Positions 4,635 through 23,004 of a DNA stretch of 24,062 nt are shown in pieces. Numbering within the stretch: position 1 is the first letter of the stretch; every line of letters starts with the position of its first letter. The stretch is from the IMG/VR virus record IMGVR_UViG_3300008339_000473, positions 1 to 24,062 of that record, one strand, 5' to 3'. The stretch comes from a virus. The notes under the pieces were generated by a model, which was not told the DNA's origin, did no database searches, and was given only the letters and a program-made list of their open reading frames with translations. A program made the position numbers and the translations under genes.

Positions 4635-6441
4635 TGTAACCGGGCAGGAGCTACGCCGCCATCAGGCGGTGGAGTTCCGCGCGCTGGGTGAAGATCGCAC
4701 GCTGGAGTTTCCATTCAGCTCGGAGCTCCCCGTCGAGCGGTGGTTCGGTTCGGAGGTGCTCAGCCATCAGGCCGACGCCGTGAATCTCGACCGCCTCAAC
4801 GACGGCGCCCCGGTGCTGTGGAACCACGACCCCGGCGCCGTTATCGGCGTGGTGGAGCGTGCCTGGGTTGACGGTGAGAAGGCGCGCGGCATGGCCCGCG
4901 TTCGGTTCTCCCGCAATGAGCTGGCGCAGCAGATCGTTGCCGACATCACGGACGGCATATTGCGCAACGTCTCGGTCGGTTACGCGATCAGAGAAGCCAG
5001 CCCCGGAGCTGATGGCCAGATCATCGCGACCTCATGGCAGCCCCATGAGGTGTCGGTGGTGAGCGTGCCAGCGGATCCAACAGTTGGGATCGGGCGCAGC
5101 CTCGAGCCCGGCGCAGCAGCCGCCCCCGCGGCGGCAACCCCCACCCCTTCCCTACCCCCAATGGAAGATCAAACCCAAACCCTCGACCTCGAGGCGGTGC
5201 GGGCTCAGGCTGCGGCCGACGAGCGCGCCCGTGTTGCTGAGATCCACGGCATGACCCGGCGCCATGGCGTTGAGAACCTGGCGCAGGAGCTGATTGAGCG
5301 CGGCGTGGCCGTGTCCGACGCCCGGGCCCAGGTGCTCGACGAGCTGGAGAAGCGCGGCAAGCAGCCCGCCACCCCCAAGGCCGCGGCCGCTGCGCAGCCG
5401 ATCGGCGGCAGCGCTGACATCGGCCTGACCGATAAGGAGGTGCGCAGCTACAGCTTCCTGCGCGCGATCCGCGCCCAGGCCTTCCCCAATGACCGCGAGG
5501 CCTGGGAGGCTGCAGGGTTCGAGCGTGAGGTGAGCGAGGCCACCCAAAAGGCCAGCGGCAAGAGCGCCCGCGGCTTTATGGTGCCCGACCAGATCCTGAC
5601 CCGCGGCCTGACCGCTGGCAGCCCCACGCAAGCCGGCGACCTGATCGCCCAGGACTTCCGCGCCGACAGCTTTATCGAGCTGCTCCGCAACCGGATGGCC
5701 CTGGATTCCCTGGGCGTCACCACCATGACCGGCCTGACCGGCCCGGTGGCCTTCCCCCGCCAGACCGGCGCGGCCACGGCCTACTGGGTCGCGGAGGGTG
5801 GCGACGTGACCGAATCGACCCCCAGCGTGGATCAGGTGAACCTCTCGCCCAAGACCCTGGGCGGTTACACCGAGCTGAGCCGGCGCCTGATCATGCAAGC
5901 GTCCGTGGATGCTGAGCAATGGGTTCGCACCGAGCTGGCAACCGTGCTGGCGCTGGAGATTGACCGGGCCGCCCTCTATGGCACCGGCACCAGCAACCAG
6001 CCCCAGGGCCTCAAGAATGTCACCGGGATCAACACCGAAGATTTCGGCGCCGCCCAGCCGACCTACATCGAGCTGGTGAGCATGGAGACCAAGGTGGCGG
6101 CGGACAATGCCGACATCGGCAGCATGGCCTATCTGACCAACAGCACCATCTACGGCGGGTTTAAGACCACCAGCAAGGCCGGCACCGAGGCGATTTTCGT
6201 GCTCGAGCCTGGCAACACCGTGAACGGCTACCCCGTGCAACGGTCCAATCAGGTGGCCACCGGGGATGTGTTCTTCGGCGTGTGGTCCCAGCTGATGGTG
6301 GGCCTGTTCGGTGGCCTCGATCTGCTGGTGAACCCTTACGCCCTGGACAAGTCCGGCGGCGTGCGTGTGACCGCTCTGCAGGATGTGGACGTGGCAGTTC
6401 GCCACCCCGAATCCTTCACCCGCGGCAACAACACCCTCTGA
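4618..6441 (+). CDS. Fused prohead protease (S78-like) and HK97-type major capsid protein
   Basis: A single 607-residue ORF carries two head-maturation functions. Residues ~1-160 are an S78-type prohead protease: catalytic His is likely H70 in VLWNHDPG, Ser likely S119 in ILRNVSVGY, followed by EVSVVSVPADP (144-154). An Ala/Pro linker (165-181) leads to a charged helical delta/scaffold-like segment (about 185-260). The HK97-fold capsid domain follows, from about 275 or the likely cleavage region near 315-330, with FIELLRNRMALDSLGV, AYWVAEGG, ALEIDRAALYGTG and the C-terminal DVAVRHPESF. ATG 4618 is chosen because the upstream in-frame part overlaps the portal and is not protein-like. In most relatives protease and capsid are separate genes. 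An in-frame ATG at 5161, right after the linker, could give a separate capsid product, but I see no ribosome site there. Confidence 0.92.
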   Translation: MDLARDVTGQELRRHQAVEFRALGEDRTLEFPFSSELPVERWFGSEVLSHQADAVNLDRLNDGAPVLWNHDPGAVIGVVERAWVDGEKARGMARVRFSRNELAQQIVADITDGILRNVSVGYAIREASPGADGQIIATSWQPHEVSVVSVPADPTVGIGRSLEPGAAAAPAAATPTPSLPPMEDQTQTLDLEAVRAQAAADERARVAEIHGMTRRHGVENLAQELIERGVAVSDARAQVLDELEKRGKQPATPKAAAAAQPIGGSADIGLTDKEVRSYSFLRAIRAQAFPNDREAWEAAGFEREVSEATQKASGKSARGFMVPDQILTRGLTAGSPTQAGDLIAQDFRADSFIELLRNRMALDSLGVTTMTGLTGPVAFPRQTGAATAYWVAEGGDVTESTPSVDQVNLSPKTLGGYTELSRRLIMQASVDAEQWVRTELATVLALEIDRAALYGTGTSNQPQGLKNVTGINTEDFGAAQPTYIELVSMETKVAADNADIGSMAYLTNSTIYGGFKTTSKAGTEAIFVLEPGNTVNGYPVQRSNQVATGDVFFGVWSQLMVGLFGGLDLLVNPYALDKSGGVRVTALQDVDVAVRHPESFTRGNNTL

Positions 6442-6455
6442 CCTGAGGTGATCTG

Positions 6456-6692
6456 ATGCTGCTCGAGATCCTGGCGCAGACCTCCATTGCCGGCCGCCCC
6501 GTGCGGCCTGGTGACGTGGTGGATGCCGCCGACCGTGACGCCCGCTATCTGGTGCTGCGCGGCAAGGCGCGCGAGGCCCAGGCCCCTGCGGCCGATGCCC
6601 CGGTGGCCCAGGAGCTCGAGCAGTCCACCCCGGCAGAGGTGCCGGCGCCTGAGGCCCGCAAGCCTCGCACCCGCAAACCCCGCGAGACCTGA
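6456..6692 (+). CDS. Small head-region protein of unknown function
   Basis: A 78-residue protein starts with MLLEILAQTSIAGRPVRPGD followed by a DARYLVLRGKA segment. This small beta-type N-terminal domain is common in short genes just after phage capsid genes, and it is followed by a Pro/Ala/Glu tail ending in basic RKPRTRKPRET. A strong Shine-Dalgarno (GAGGTG at 6445-6450) sits 5 nt before the ATG, which decides the start. The slot corresponds to head-stabilising or completion proteins, but I cannot assign a role. The 3' end is 2 nt from the next gene. Confidence 0.75.
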   Translation: MLLEILAQTSIAGRPVRPGDVVDAADRDARYLVLRGKAREAQAPAADAPVAQELEQSTPAEVPAPEARKPRTRKPRET

Positions 6693-6694
6693 CC

Positions 6695-7072
6695 ATGGCC
6701 ATTCGAGCTCAGACGCTGGAGAAACTCCAGCATTTCGCCCTCTGCGCGGCGACCATCACCGCGATCAGCGACCAGACCGGTGTCGACATCAGCGACATTG
6801 AGGGCGACATTCAGTTCATCCTCAACGCTGCGGCTGCTGGTTCCGGCGCCACCTTCGACGCCAGGATCGAGCACTCCGACACCCTGGGCGGCACCTATAC
6901 CGCTGTCACCGGTGGCGGCTTCACGCAGATCGGCAACACGGCCACGAAAGAGGTCATCACCCTGAACGCCGATGCTCTGAAGGCGTTTGTTCGGTTCAGC
7001 ATCACCAGCGACGCCGGCACCGGCTCCAGCTACATGGTGGTGAACGCCATCGGCCTCAAAAAGTACGGCTGA
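6695..7072 (+). CDS. Putative head decoration/structural protein
   Basis: The 125-residue protein has a short N-terminal helical part (QTLEKLQHFALCAATI). A Thr/Gly/Ser-rich region with regular strands follows (DGDIQFI-like start, IEHSDTLGGTYTAV, KAFVRFSITS, SSYMVVNAIGLKKYG), the look of a compact beta-sandwich virion protein. It lies directly after the capsid gene where lambda has its decoration and stabilising proteins. Its stop overlaps the next start by 1 nt. No catalytic motif is visible. It could equally be a minor head fibre or an assembly factor; a virion role is inferred from context only. Confidence 0.6.
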   Translation: MAIRAQTLEKLQHFALCAATITAISDQTGVDISDIEGDIQFILNAAAAGSGATFDARIEHSDTLGGTYTAVTGGGFTQIGNTATKEVITLNADALKAFVRFSITSDAGTGSSYMVVNAIGLKKYG

Positions 7073-7419
7073 TGATCACGGAAGATCCCGCAATCTTCCT
7101 GGCCGAGTTCGGCGTCACTGTCACCAGTGGCGCCGTTTCTGGCATGGGGATTCTCGACATGCCCGGGGAGGCGATCCTCGACGGCATGGTGATCAGCACC
7201 GACTACCGGGTGCGGTGCCTGGCGTCGCTGTTCGGCGGCCTGGCGTGGGGATCTTCCATCACCGTGGGCGGGACCGCCTACACCGTCCGCGAGGTGCGCC
7301 TGGTGGATGACGGCGTGTTCTGTGAGATCACGCTCCAGCAGTCGCTGGGCAACTACATCGCGACCATCAGCGGGCTGCGGCTCACTGCGCTGAACGGCGA
7401 CCGAATCCTCGTTTCATAG
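7072..7419 (+). CDS. Head-tail joining protein, lambda gpFII-like
   Basis: A 115-residue protein with the gpFII/Phage_attach pattern: an N-terminal acidic segment (MITEDPAIFLAEFGVTVT), then a small beta-barrel with the signature GGTAYTVREVRLVDDGVF about two-thirds in. In lambda, FII sits below gpW and provides the docking surface for the tail. The start overlaps the previous stop (TGATG), so translation is probably coupled. The last ~20 residues extend beyond the core. The fold pattern and position agree, though the small size leaves some doubt. Confidence 0.65.
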   Translation: MITEDPAIFLAEFGVTVTSGAVSGMGILDMPGEAILDGMVISTDYRVRCLASLFGGLAWGSSITVGGTAYTVREVRLVDDGVFCEITLQQSLGNYIATISGLRLTALNGDRILVS

Positions 7420-7421
7420 CC

Positions 7422-8867
7422 ATGGCCGACACCACGATCACAGGGCTGCCGAACGCCACGACCCCGCTGGACGGGACGGAGCGCGTTCCGATGGATCAGG
7501 CCGGCGTGACGGTGGACGCCAGCAGCCAGGCGATTGCCGACCTGGCGGGCGCTGCGATCACGTCTGCGGTAGCTGCGCACGCGGCGGCTGGCGATCCTCA
7601 CCCGCAATACCTGACCGCAGCTGAGGGCAATGCCGCCTATGCGACGGCTGCCCAGGGCACCGACTCGCGGGAGTGGACAGCGGAGACGGTGAGCCAGGCC
7701 GAGGCCGAGGCAGGAACAGCCACCACGCGCCGGGCGTGGACCGCTCAGCGCGTGTTCCAGGCGATCGCAGCCTGGTGGGCGGCCAGCTCGGCCAAGGCAA
7801 AGCTGGACGGGATTGAGGCCGGGGCTCAAGTCAACGTCGCCACTGACCTGAGCTACACCGCCAGCACGCGGCTGCTGGCCAGCAGCACCGGAGCTGATGC
7901 CACGTTGCCGTTGTTCACCAGCGCGAACGCGGGCCTAGTGCCAGCTTCTGGCGGCGGCACGACTAACTTTTTGCGGGCTGATGGGACGTTTGCGGCGCCG
8001 CCTGGCGGCACCCCCGGCGGCTCGACCACTGAGGTTCAGTACAACAACGCAGGCGCGTTTGCTGGCATCTCAACGCTGACCTACGACGGCACGACGCTGA
8101 CGTGCGCGGGTCGGATGCGGAACAGCTTCACCAGCATCGCCAGTACTCCGGCTAAAGCCTTCACCGGGACGTGGTTCACAGGCGGCAGTGCCACAACGAC
8201 CAAGCCCCACCTCCTGATTGAGCCTGCGGGCACCACGTCTACGGCGTGGAGCACCAGTGGCACCGGCCTGGGCGTCAATGCGGCGAGTGGGTTTGCGGGG
8301 AACCTGCTGGACTTGCAAGTGGCGGGGGTTAGCCGATTTAGAGCGGCCGCCACAGGCGCTGTAAGCGTTTCCGGTAGTGAGAACGCCTTCTTAGGCCTGA
8401 GCATTGTAAACTCGTCGTCTGCGTCTACCGCTAGCGCAGGCTTTGCAGTCACCGGCAACAACACATCGTCACTCCTTGCCCGCACCTACAGCAGCGGTAA
8501 CACCGTGGCGGTTTGGGGTATCACATTAGCAAACTACAGCGGTCTGTTTAGTGACGGTGCCGATTCTAATGGCTTCCTCCTTGGAACCCTTACCAATAAG
8601 CCGATAGTCATTGGGACTAACACTGCCGAACGGCTGCGTATTGGAGGCGGCGGCGGGATAACCATTGCTGACGCCAACGACATTGCCGTGGGCACCAGCA
8701 CCGGCACCAAGATCGGCACCGCCACCACGCAGAAGCTGGGCTTTTACAACAAGGCTCCGGTGGTGCAGCCGGCGGCCGTGGCTGATGCGACGGATGCTGC
8801 CAGCGTCATCACCCAACTCAACCTGCTGCTGTCCCGGATGCGGGATCTCGGCCTCATCTCTACTTGA
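7422..8867 (+). CDS. Fibre protein (head or tail appendage)
   Basis: The 481-residue protein is a phage fibre. It opens with TTITGLPNATTPLDGTERVPMDQ, an anchor motif common at fibre N-termini. Then come an Ala-rich helical shaft with GDPHPQYLTAAEG, the repeat motif DGIEAGAQVN, the segment TTNFLRADGTFAAPPGG, and a Ser/Thr/Gly-rich distal part. It ends with GTATTQKLGFYNKAPVVQPA and a short helical C-terminus that probably trimerises. Such trimeric fibres mediate adsorption or decorate heads. It lies between the head-tail joiner and the tail terminator rather than after the tail tip gene. Its distal-coding half (about 8340-8700) drops to roughly 50% GC, well below its neighbours, suggesting exchange of the receptor-binding part. 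(Anchor motif shown in pieces: TTITGLPNATTPLDG, then TERVPMDQ.). Confidence 0.8.
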   Translation: MADTTITGLPNATTPLDGTERVPMDQAGVTVDASSQAIADLAGAAITSAVAAHAAAGDPHPQYLTAAEGNAAYATAAQGTDSREWTAETVSQAEAEAGTATTRRAWTAQRVFQAIAAWWAASSAKAKLDGIEAGAQVNVATDLSYTASTRLLASSTGADATLPLFTSANAGLVPASGGGTTNFLRADGTFAAPPGGTPGGSTTEVQYNNAGAFAGISTLTYDGTTLTCAGRMRNSFTSIASTPAKAFTGTWFTGGSATTTKPHLLIEPAGTTSTAWSTSGTGLGVNAASGFAGNLLDLQVAGVSRFRAAATGAVSVSGSENAFLGLSIVNSSSASTASAGFAVTGNNTSSLLARTYSSGNTVAVWGITLANYSGLFSDGADSNGFLLGTLTNKPIVIGTNTAERLRIGGGGGITIADANDIAVGTSTGTKIGTATTQKLGFYNKAPVVQPAAVADATDAASVITQLNLLLSRMRDLGLIST

Positions 8868-19535: not shown

Positions 19536-19816
19536 AGCTCCAACGATTCCAGCCCCTGGCGATTCGCATCGCGCGGGCCCTGCTGGTCCGCACGTTGCGC
19601 CCGCAGCTGCGGCGCCAGCTGGCCGCGATCTTCGCCGAAACCGACGCCACTATCCCCGAGTCCCTGGCGGCCGGTGCGCCGCCGGTCGTGGTGGAGGGCC
19701 TGATCGTTCAGGCGGTGAAGCGCGCCACCGGCATCCAACCCACCGCGTCTGACATTCAGGTGATCGGCGCACTGTTCGACGTGGTGGCGGCTGCGGTGCC
19801 GCTGAGCAAGCGATGA
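19532..19816 (+). CDS. Small helical protein in the lysis cassette
   Basis: The 94-residue protein has an Arg-rich amphipathic N-terminus (FQPLAIRIARALLVRTLRPQ, LRRQLAAIFAETD) and a hydrophobic C-terminal helix (IQVIGALFDVVAAAVPL). ATG 19532 overlaps the previous stop (ATGA), and the 3' end overlaps the endolysin start by 4 nt, so it is part of the coupled lysis unit. I do not recognise the family. Possible roles include antiholin or a tail/lysis accessory, none supported by a specific motif. Confidence 0.6.
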   Translation: MKLQRFQPLAIRIARALLVRTLRPQLRRQLAAIFAETDATIPESLAAGAPPVVVEGLIVQAVKRATGIQPTASDIQVIGALFDVVAAAVPLSKR

Positions 19817-20874
19817 CCAATCACGCCCCCATCACTCTGGGCCAGCTGTTCCGCTACTGGCGCAACCTGCCCCACCAGGCCGCGGCGATTATTGAGCTCG
19901 AGGACGATCTGCAGCGCAACGGCTACGAGGCCGCCATGCGCCGCGACCGGCCGTGGTTCAGCGTCTGGAGCCAGTCGGGCCTGCAGGCGGATGATGCCTG
20001 GCTGGCACCGGCCACCAAGCTGATCCAGTCGTTCGAGGGCCTGTCGCTCACGGCCTACCGCGACCCGGTGGGTGTGTGGACAATCGGCTACGGCAGCACC
20101 AGGCTGAACGGCGAGCCGGTCCGCGAGGGCGACACGCTCACCACGGTGGAGGCCGAGGGCCTGCTGCGCCGCGAGCTGCTGGAGCTGTTCGGCCCTGGCG
20201 TGTTCGCGCTGCTGCCGCTGGCGAAGAAGTGGCGCCCCGAGCAGCAGGCGGCGCTGGTGTCGTGGGCCTTCAATGTGGGCCTGGGGGCGGTGGAGGAGTC
20301 CACCCTCCGCAGGCGCCTGCTCGCCGGCGAGGATCCCGCCACCGTGGTGCGTGAGGAGCTGCCTCGCTGGGACAAGGCGGACGGCAAGCCCCTGGCCGGG
20401 TTGACGCGCCGCCGTCAGGCCGAGGTGGCGCTGTTCACCGGCGGGGCCGCCCCGAAGTTCACCCCGGGCGCGCCGTTCAGCTTCCGGGTCACGCCCCACA
20501 TCACCTACGGGGAGCTGACGCTGGGCGAGGAGTCCCGCCGGTTCCAGCACCAATACCAGTGCGACATGGCACTGGAGCTCTGCGTGTTCGCCGAGAAGGC
20601 CCGGGCCGCGTTCGGCGGCAAGCCGGTGGTCGTGACCAGCGCCTACCGGCCGCCAGCCGTCAACGCCGCCGTGGGCGGTGCCCGCAACAGCGAACATCTC
20701 TACAACGCGCCTGGGATCGGGGCGATCGACTTCTATCTGGAGGGCGTGCCGGTGCTGGAGCTGCAGCAATGGGCCGAGCGGGCCTGGCCCTATTCGCTCG
20801 GCTACGGGGCGCCGAATTTCATCCACATCGGCAAGCGCCAGGGCGCGCCGCGGGTGCGGTGGGACTACGCCTGA
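19813..20874 (+). CDS. Two-domain endolysin: GH24 lysozyme plus M15-type peptidase
   Basis: The 353-residue protein joins two wall-cutting enzymes. Residues ~64-210 are a T4-type lysozyme (GH24, cuts the glycan strand): E75 in FEGLSLTAYRD, D84 and T90 in VWTIGYG keep the spacing of T4 E11/D20/T26. WAFNVGLGAV (151-160) matches the conserved core. Residues ~225-353 are an M15-like metallopeptidase: SAYRPPAVNAAVGG, then zinc ligands likely H295 (NSEHL), D306 (GAIDFYL) and H338 (FIHIG). The first ~60 residues are a helical leader without a clear signal peptide, so export probably depends on the holin. The gene ends the late operon, overlapping a convergent gene by 10 nt. Confidence 0.9.
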   Translation: MTNHAPITLGQLFRYWRNLPHQAAAIIELEDDLQRNGYEAAMRRDRPWFSVWSQSGLQADDAWLAPATKLIQSFEGLSLTAYRDPVGVWTIGYGSTRLNGEPVREGDTLTTVEAEGLLRRELLELFGPGVFALLPLAKKWRPEQQAALVSWAFNVGLGAVEESTLRRRLLAGEDPATVVREELPRWDKADGKPLAGLTRRRQAEVALFTGGAAPKFTPGAPFSFRVTPHITYGELTLGEESRRFQHQYQCDMALELCVFAEKARAAFGGKPVVVTSAYRPPAVNAAVGGARNSEHLYNAPGIGAIDFYLEGVPVLELQQWAERAWPYSLGYGAPNFIHIGKRQGAPRVRWDYA

Positions 20875-21041
20875 CGCCCCAGCACCGGCGCCGGCCCGTC
20901 GTACCCCGCAGCGGTGGCGAGGCAGTGCCAACGCAGCTGGGCCTGCTCCAGCTGCTGGTGCCGGCTGACGAGGCCCAGGCCGCAGACCTCGAACATGGGC
21001 CGCCCGTCAACGATCACGACCTGAATGGTGGGAGCGTCCAT
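20865..21041 (-). CDS. Small minus-strand hypothetical protein
   Basis: A 58-residue protein reads PTIQVVIVDGRPMFEVCGLG, then a helical RHQQLEQAQLRWHCLATAAG. The N-terminal strand pair (VVIVDGRPMFEV) resembles a small globular domain, and the amino-acid mix is protein-like rather than a shadow of a plus-strand frame. It is convergent with the endolysin (10-nt overlap) and divergent from the NblA-like gene. ATG 21041 is preferred over longer in-frame starts (ORF open to 21128) because the extra N-terminus is low quality and would run into the neighbouring gene. Function unknown. Confidence 0.5.
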   Translation of the reverse strand: MDAPTIQVVIVDGRPMFEVCGLGLVSRHQQLEQAQLRWHCLATAAGYDGPAPVLGRQA

Positions 21042-21118
21042 CACGAACTGGCGCCTCAGCCTCAGCAGACACAGACTGGCGGGATCCTGCTGCGGTCGCC
21101 ATGGGCTGGGGTGAATGG

Positions 21119-21373
21119 ATGGTGCCATCGCTGACGCCCACGCAGGACTTCGAGCTGCGCCGGGCTGAGCTGAACCTGGAGGACGCCGCCACCAGCGAGC
21201 CCCACGCGGTGGCCGCCTTGGCCGCCAGCTTGCTGCGTCAGAACGCGCTGCAGGGATCGATCATCCAGCAGGCCGCGGCCCGGGTGATGGCGCTGGAGTG
21301 TGAGCTGGAGCTGGTGCGCCGGCCGCGACCGCGGCGGCCCTGGTGGGCGATCAGCTGGCCCAGGTTGTGGTGA
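21119..21373 (+). CDS. NblA/Ycf18-like protein (candidate phycobilisome-degradation adaptor)
   Basis: Residues ~5-52 of this 84-residue protein follow the NblA layout: LTPTQDFELRRAELN (like the L-x-x-x-Q-x-F-x-(I/L)-R-x-x-E start of NblA), a variable turn, then a helix LAASLLRQNALQGSIIQQ, matching the L-(Y/L)-(K/R)-Q-x6-(M/I)-(Y/I) helix. NblA recruits the Clp protease to phycobilisomes, and some freshwater cyanophages carry nblA genes. The C-terminus adds an Arg/Pro/Trp-rich tail (RRPRPRRPWW...) not usual in NblA. ATG 21119 has GGGGTGA 4 nt upstream; ATG 21101 is an in-frame alternative, with a weak CAGACT hexamer 23 nt before it. The gene is likely real; the NblA call is from pattern only. 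Confidence 0.55.
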   Translation: MVPSLTPTQDFELRRAELNLEDAATSEPHAVAALAASLLRQNALQGSIIQQAAARVMALECELELVRRPRPRRPWWAISWPRLW

Positions 21374-21442
21374 GGGGCGCTTGATTGGTTCAGCCGTATC
21401 ACTTATCACCCAGACCCGTTGCAGCGCGGCGGGTTAGCTGTT

Positions 21443-21459
21443 GAGAATCACTGATTCTC
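21443..21459. repeat. Perfect 17-nt palindrome
   Basis: GAGAATCA-C-TGATTCTC has 8-bp arms around one central base, at the left of the non-coding region, about 70 nt after the NblA-like gene. It could be an operator for a dimeric repressor. No T-run follows, so it is not an obvious terminator, and the one-base loop makes an RNA hairpin unfavourable. Confidence 0.5.
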
Positions 21460-21521
21460 TGAGTTTGTGTCGTGATGTGAAGCGGGTGAGTGTGACAGTG
21501 CCGCGCGGACGGTTCTCCACA

Positions 21522-21535
21522 AGTATGCCCGTACT
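21522..21535. promoter_or_regulatory. LexA-like box 1 (AGTATGCCCGTACT)
   Basis: The dyad AGTAT-GCCC-GTACT differs at two positions from the RGTACNNNDGTWCB consensus described for Anabaena LexA. Its partner site is at 21757. A phage operator bound by host LexA would tie expression to DNA damage. Binding is inferred. Confidence 0.4.
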
Positions 21536-21604
21536 GTTTTGAGCAGATCCCTTGCGGCGCAATGTATTTGAGCTGTAGTGCGCCTGTACCTGTGGAATCT
21601 ATTC

Positions 21605-21700
21605 TGTGCCGAGTCGATACCGAATCCGGGCCAGCATGTGCCAGTTGAGACCCGACCCGTGTGCGTGGAGTGTGCCAGTTCGTTCTTATGTGTGCCACTT
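21605..21700 (+). repeat. Short direct repeats TGTGCC(A)(G/C)TT
   Basis: TGTGCC occurs at 21605; TGTGCCAGTT at 21637 and 21671; TGTGCCACTT at 21691. An inverted copy of the core (TGGCAC) lies just right of these, in CACTGGCACT at 21704-21713. Spacing is irregular (32, 34, 20 nt). Such clustered short repeats can be regulator-binding sites or the terminal repeats of an IS21-type element remnant; no transposase is present. Confidence 0.5.
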
Positions 21701-21756
21701 TGTCACTGGCACTGCGGGGCCAGAACGACTGCGCCGCAACGGGTCTGGTCAATCTG

Positions 21757-21770
21757 AGTACAGCAGTACC
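21757..21770. promoter_or_regulatory. LexA-like box 2 (AGTACAGCAGTACC)
   Basis: AGTAC-AGCA-GTACC matches every position of the Anabaena-type LexA consensus RGTACNNNDGTWCB. It lies 68 nt before the first small gene of the downstream cluster (ATG 21839), so it could control that cluster. Confidence 0.5.
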
Positions 21771-21838
21771 AGCAGCCCGCCCCGTCCATCTGGTGACGAT
21801 GTGGTGCACAGTGGAGGAGCCCCACGCACCACCCACCC

Positions 21839-22815: not shown

Positions 22816-23004
22816 TCACGCCATCAGCAACCGGCGGACGGTGGAGCGGCTGCAGCCGAGCCGGTTGGCGATGGCCTGTTGCGTGAGGCCGTCACGGCGC
22901 CAGCGCCGGGCCCGCTGCTGGCGGGTCTCCATGGCCCAGGCCAGGACGATCAGCGGGAGCAGCAGCAGGGCGACGGCCCAGGCGGCGATGCAGGTTGCGG
23001 GCAT
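22816..23004 (-). CDS. Membrane-anchored helix-turn-helix protein
   Basis: This 62-residue protein has one hydrophobic segment (IAAWAVALLLLPLIVLAWA, about 6-24), a basic stretch (ETRQQRARRWRRDG), and a resolvase-type helix-turn-helix (LTQQAIANRLGCSRSTVRRL, about 40-59). GGAGGG 4 nt before ATG 23004 fixes the start and excludes the longer in-frame N-terminus. The basic residues after the helix predict a cytoplasmic HTH, i.e. a DNA-binding domain held at the membrane. The gene diverges from the operon beginning at 23170, with overlapping promoters, so it may regulate that operon or itself. The family is unknown. Confidence 0.75.
   Translation of the reverse strand: MPATCIAAWAVALLLLPLIVLAWAMETRQQRARRWRRDGLTQQAIANRLGCSRSTVRRLLMA

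Follow-up and report, generated by a model that had tools for sequence, protein, structure and literature searches.

Does the short gene beside the endolysin gene of a siphophage encode a relative of NblA, and would it act as one? The small adaptor NblA binds both phycobiliproteins and ClpC and sets off degradation of the phycobilisome; in crystals it forms four-helix bundles of dimers (PMC7966870). When NblAs from several phage groups were expressed heterologously, phycobilin was lost (reviewed in PMC9602691). The DNA analysed here (hereafter the window) is a 24,062-base IMG/VR virus record carrying a siphophage structural module with terminase, portal, major head protein, tape measure and tail proteins.

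The gene and its coding status

The following features of the window were considered.

19813..20874, + strand: endolysin (Phage_lysozyme 7e-36; Peptidase_M15_3 9e-16), the conserved upstream neighbour
20865..21041, - strand: small divergent ORF, MDAPTIQVVIVDGRPMFEVCG..., about 58 aa
21042..21100, no strand assigned: intergenic region between the divergent genes, with CTCAGYCTCAGCAGACMCAGACTGGC kept in L001, L002 and L005; candidate promoter region
21101..21373, + strand: NblA-like ORF, 90 aa, with the C-terminal Arg/Pro/Trp tail RRPWWAISWPRLW

A preliminary description had placed an NblA-like gene at 21119-21373. The ORF and both peptides quoted from it are present; its start, however, is better placed 18 nt upstream, at ATG 21101. 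From this ATG the product begins with MGWGEWMV, which is kept in the close relatives L001 and L002 and is replaced by MGWGQWMV in L005 and by MSWAEWMV or MSWAQWMV in S-CBS1 and KBS-S-2A. ATG 21101 was chosen over 21119 because of this conservation upstream of 21119.

The NblA-like ORF is a real coding gene under purifying selection. In the + frame, dN/dS was 0.21-0.30 in the window subgroup, 0.11-0.25 inside the S-CBS1 group and 0.13 for S-LBS1/L008. One could suppose instead that the ORF is spurious and that the true gene lies on the opposite strand (21062-21409, minus), as spurious ORFs can be long in high G+C DNA, and no stop interrupts the opposite frame in the window and its close relatives. 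We consider this extremely improbable: coding on the opposite strand was rejected on the + frame dN/dS of 0.11-0.30 across the three subgroups, and S-CBS1, KBS-S-2A and S-LBS1 all have a gene annotated in the + frame.

The 59 bp upstream of the gene are conserved in close relatives. The block CTCAGYCTCAGCAGACMCAGACTGGC occurs in one copy in the window and is therefore not a repeated phage promoter there; neither a sigma-70-like promoter nor a terminator was found for the gene. On its 3' side, about 460 bp (21374-21838) hold no convincing gene and differ from the DNA of L002 and L005 at this place. L001, otherwise near-identical to the window, differs here by an apparent deletion.

Relatives, gene order and host

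Copies of the gene with 76-100 % identity were found on several IMG/VR contigs. When 50,697 phage records were searched using tblastn, matches were obtained in S-CBS1 and KBS-S-2A only (E 0.03-0.04), and the S-LBS1 member was identified through its gene position. The three homologues (S-CBS1 gp26, KBS-S-2A CPKG_00010 and S-LBS1 A32), all annotated as hypothetical and all from Synechococcus siphophages, share 22-39 % identity with the window protein over the alignment and occupy the equivalent place between endolysin and sigma factor. The gene order common to the three isolates is endolysin (+), small ORF (-), NblA-like gene (+) and RNA polymerase sigma factor (-). The window contains the first three of these genes and has no sigma-factor gene directly downstream. 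The place beside the endolysin, which the preliminary description had singled out as notable, is conserved in all three isolates.

The window endolysin resembles those of the Synechococcus siphophages S-LBS1 and S-CBS3. Compared with the endolysin of L005 (3620-4774) it shows a domain swap: both have the M15-type C-terminal half, but the phage lysozyme at the N-terminus of the window enzyme gives way in L005 to what looks like a different, muramidase-like lytic domain. In the case of the small divergent ORF (20865-21041), no family was matched in Pfam/PHROGs-type scans, and proteins that look similar by reading lie at the equivalent position in S-CBS1, KBS-S-2A and S-LBS1.

Further differences were observed downstream. 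L005 encodes a large serine recombinase (5725-7494; phrog_95 integrase, E 8e-41) shortly after its NblA-like gene and is therefore probably temperate; in the window this place is taken by other small ORFs. A small protein that reads as a hydrophobic helix followed by a helix-turn-helix is conserved between the window (22816-23004, minus) and L005 (5382-5570, minus), and the L005 product matches phage HTH families (phrog_664, E 1e-6).

Members of the family were also found on Cyanobiaceae contigs. On the assembly contig L160, which has phage-like genes, the NblA-like gene carries an S-LBS1-type tail and converges on an ORF whose product reads as a sigma factor. The gene adjoining it there is, by reading, a C39-peptidase-like ORF, a different lysis-type neighbour in the equivalent place. 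On L171, the gene has an S-LBS1-like C-terminus and lies near an apparent integrase start, which suggests that this copy is in a prophage.

A phycobilisome-bearing cyanobacterial host had also been proposed. This agrees with the nearest cultured phages, which infect Synechococcus; TCC793, the host of S-LBS1, shows phycobilisome fluorescence (PMC6157547), and the host of the window phage would be of this kind by its relatives.

Comparison with NblA

The NblA family profile PF04485 (curated cut-off of 25 bits) had been put forward as a check on the gene, and this plain check failed: no family member was matched at E<=10. When known phage NblAs were used for calibration, those of Ma-LMM01 and PaV-LD passed PF04485 clearly and that of S-SCSM1, published as NblA on HHpred evidence (PMC9602691), failed like the cyanosiphophage family. 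Thus, the failure is not decisive alone, and family-level tests were used; as PF04485 is not matched, we call the gene NblA-like and not a PF04485 member.

Scans of the protein against Pfam, PHROGs and NCBIfam gave chance-level matches only (DUF2076, E 0.04; DUF1118), and among PDB chain sequences nothing beyond weak matches to Rof and S21 was obtained with the family profile. When phage records were searched by tblastn, three NblAs, two of them canonical and one picocyanobacterial, did not reach the cyanosiphophage family, and a fourth NblA retrieved the known Microcystis and Planktothrix phage NblAs only. A scan of genome contigs with the family alignment found no relative, whereas a profile search of genomes did (see below).

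In a search of 4,829 ORFs from cyanobacterial loci with the family HMM, the best 12 matches were all NblA (top E 6e-4), and 137 of the 139 NblA ORFs were among the 217 matches at E<=100; as NblA ORFs are mutually related, this amounts to one strong test and not 137 independent ones. HMMs of single subgroups put NblA first for the S-LBS1 pair and for KBS-S-2A, and not for the window subgroup. In the opposite direction, a canonical NblA HMM built from 65 NblAs was searched against 2,405 phage ORFs. Ma-LMM01 and PaV-LD ranked first and second, with KBS-S-2A third, S-LBS1 fifth and S-CBS1 sixth, as high as or higher than the published S-SCSM1 NblA (rank 7); the window protein ranked 22nd (E 11). 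The same HMM retrieves phage-borne NblAs (Ma-LMM01, PaV-LD, MaMV-DC and S-SCSM1 ORF237) together with the cyanosiphophage family. The published ones belong to other phage groups and gene neighbourhoods and have no tail.

Alignment of the whole family with NblA by hhalign gave P 88 and a score of 37.8 over 55 columns, compared with 17.8 for the best of 100 column shuffles. By subgroup, P was 88 for the S-CBS1 type, 42 for the S-LBS1 type and 23 for the window type, and each subgroup scored above all of its 100 shuffles. The score varies with how broad the NblA profile is: stand-alone hhalign with smaller NblA sets gave P 56 for three PDB sequences and P 16 for ten proteins closely related to Anabaena NblA. 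When small-protein families of related phages, 89 in all, were ranked against NblA, the two clusters that make up the NblA-like family came first and second.

At E<=0.05, the family HMM had matches in 147 of 300 picocyanobacterial genomes, the best of which read as small NblA-like proteins, e.g. MSNSIELTVGQQFEMERF. Most of these were matched by an NblA HMM at about 1e-5 to 1e-8, and an alignment of eleven of them gave P 94 against canonical NblA. By profile, such proteins (L167, L168, L152) are the closest cellular relatives of the whole family (hhalign P 96). Their NblA function is putative; they are about 57-70 aa long, lack the Trp patch and the tail, and mostly fall below the Pfam cut-off. 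The Cyanobiaceae genomes L161, L163-L168, L172 and L173 encode small NblA-like proteins, sometimes several per genome, which PF04485 misses or scores far below cut-off. With a combined canonical and picocyanobacterial HMM, six of the top nine of the 2,405 phage ORFs were family members, including the window protein (E 0.0066), and the other three were published phage NblAs; this result is partly circular because the bridging set was found with the family HMM. The picocyanobacterial HMM alone put the S-SCSM1 NblA first (E 3e-7), which argues that the bridge is sound.

The NblA-like residue pattern noted in the preliminary description is therefore beyond chance, as judged by profile searches in both directions, hhalign shuffles and decoy families. 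Judged by profile similarity over a core of about 50 residues, the family appears to belong to NblA in the superfamily sense, weakly so for the window subgroup alone, and the gene is very likely a remote homologue of NblA. Alternatively, it could encode an unrelated small helical-hairpin phage protein (e.g. an accessory protein for lysis or an assembly factor of coiled-coil type) that resembles NblA by convergence of short amphipathic helices. Short helical proteins do give false remote matches, Pfam has no match, and the window subgroup is weak by itself. This explanation nevertheless seems quite improbable, since NblA comes out on top from both search directions, no match to NblA was seen for other small phage families, the matches are collinear over the whole core, and the phages infect phycobilisome-bearing hosts.

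Predicted structure, added segments and proposed role

The helical hairpin expected of an NblA was also seen by prediction. AlphaFold2, run on the window protein with nine relatives, gave helices at 13-29 and 33-73 (mean pLDDT 73, pTM 0.40), and a genuine NblA treated equally gave helices at 9-23 and 27-55 (pLDDT 79). In the alignment, the first helix begins just past the aligned Ser/Thr in both proteins. With moderate confidence, the window protein is thus predicted to share the NblA layout, a helix-loop-helix monomer with a short first and a longer second helix. Foldseek and VIA searches of PDB and BFVD returned nothing useful for the window model; as Foldseek listed no NblA chain from PDB for the genuine NblA model either, the missing NblA chains say nothing.

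The likeness to cyanobacterial NblA/Ycf18 (PF04485; PDB 1OJH, 2Q8V, 2QDO, 3CS5) lies in the collinear core, L[ST]-x-E/Q-Q/D-F/L..., followed by a loop and the second helix of the predicted helix-loop-helix. The family differs in that it falls below Pfam detection, with about 18 % core identity, and is longer (70-98 aa, 90 aa in the window, compared with about 60 aa for canonical NblA): a core of about 55 aa is extended at both ends, with a Trp-rich N-terminus and an Arg/Pro/Trp (RPWW) tail beyond the NblA core. The tail occurs in the S-CBS1 and window groups, is absent from KBS-S-2A, L016 and L017, and is of another kind in S-LBS1; it is therefore accessory and not part of the core. Another difference concerns Lys53 of Anabaena NblA, which we take to be needed for phycobilisome binding. 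At the equivalent position most members have Ala or Gly (Ala60 in the window protein; Gly in the proteins of S-CBS1, KBS-S-2A and S-LBS1). A basic residue at this position is not universal, since picocyanobacterial L167 has Glu. An Arg is found one residue past it in the window, S-CBS1 and KBS-S-2A.

These differences call for caution over the role of the protein. A repurposed NblA homologue would keep the adaptor fold, and perhaps ClpC binding, and have another host or phage protein as its target, possibly one connected with the adjacent sigma factor or with a decision over lysis or lysogeny, with specificity given by the Trp N-terminus and the RPWW tail. The retention of the extra N- and C-terminal segments across members that are about 40 % identical, the loss of the basic residue at the Lys53 position and the fixed place between endolysin and sigma factor favour this. 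However, the constant part of the family is the NblA core and not the tail, and phycobilin loss is the effect of those phage NblAs that have been tested (PMC9602691). We therefore consider repurposing of the window protein rather unlikely. That the whole family, with its Trp-rich N-terminus and Arg/Pro/Trp tail and its place between lysis genes and phage sigma factor, consists of repurposed NblA-derived cyanosiphophage adaptors that bring host ClpC a target other than phycobiliproteins, or a further one besides them, is likewise unlikely.

The reading that we prefer, at a probability of about two in three from sequence comparison and modelling, is a divergent NblA-type adaptor that delivers phycobiliproteins to the host ClpC. 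The carrier would be a cyanosiphophage of the S-CBS1 / S-LBS1 / KBS-S-2A group, and its host a phycobilisome-bearing, Synechococcus-like picocyanobacterium. We infer that during infection phycobiliproteins would be bound by the helix-loop-helix core, which probably forms a dimer, and handed over to the ClpC(P) protease of the host, with bleaching of the cells; the antenna would be stripped, amino acids freed and excess excitation lowered ahead of lysis. The place beside the endolysin suggests late expression, and transcription may, as a guess, depend on the phage sigma factor encoded next door in the isolates.

NblA itself is already known, and in phages it was previously found in those of Microcystis and Planktothrix, in marine and estuarine cyanopodoviruses and in some cyanomyoviruses. 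A published list of phage NblAs includes no cyanosiphovirus (PMC9602691). In our literature search, which covered mainly papers available without subscription, so that earlier recognition is possible, no cyanosiphovirus NblA of the S-CBS1 / S-LBS1 / KBS-S-2A group was named in any paper. What appears to be new is that cultured Synechococcus siphophages carry an NblA-like gene that had gone unannotated. The Pfam NblA model misses this cyanosiphophage family as well as many picocyanobacterial NblA-like proteins. As three members are in phages isolated on cultured Synechococcus (S-CBS1, KBS-S-2A and S-LBS1), the hypothesis is directly testable. If it is right, the dismantling of the host antenna would extend to the siphophages of picocyanobacteria.
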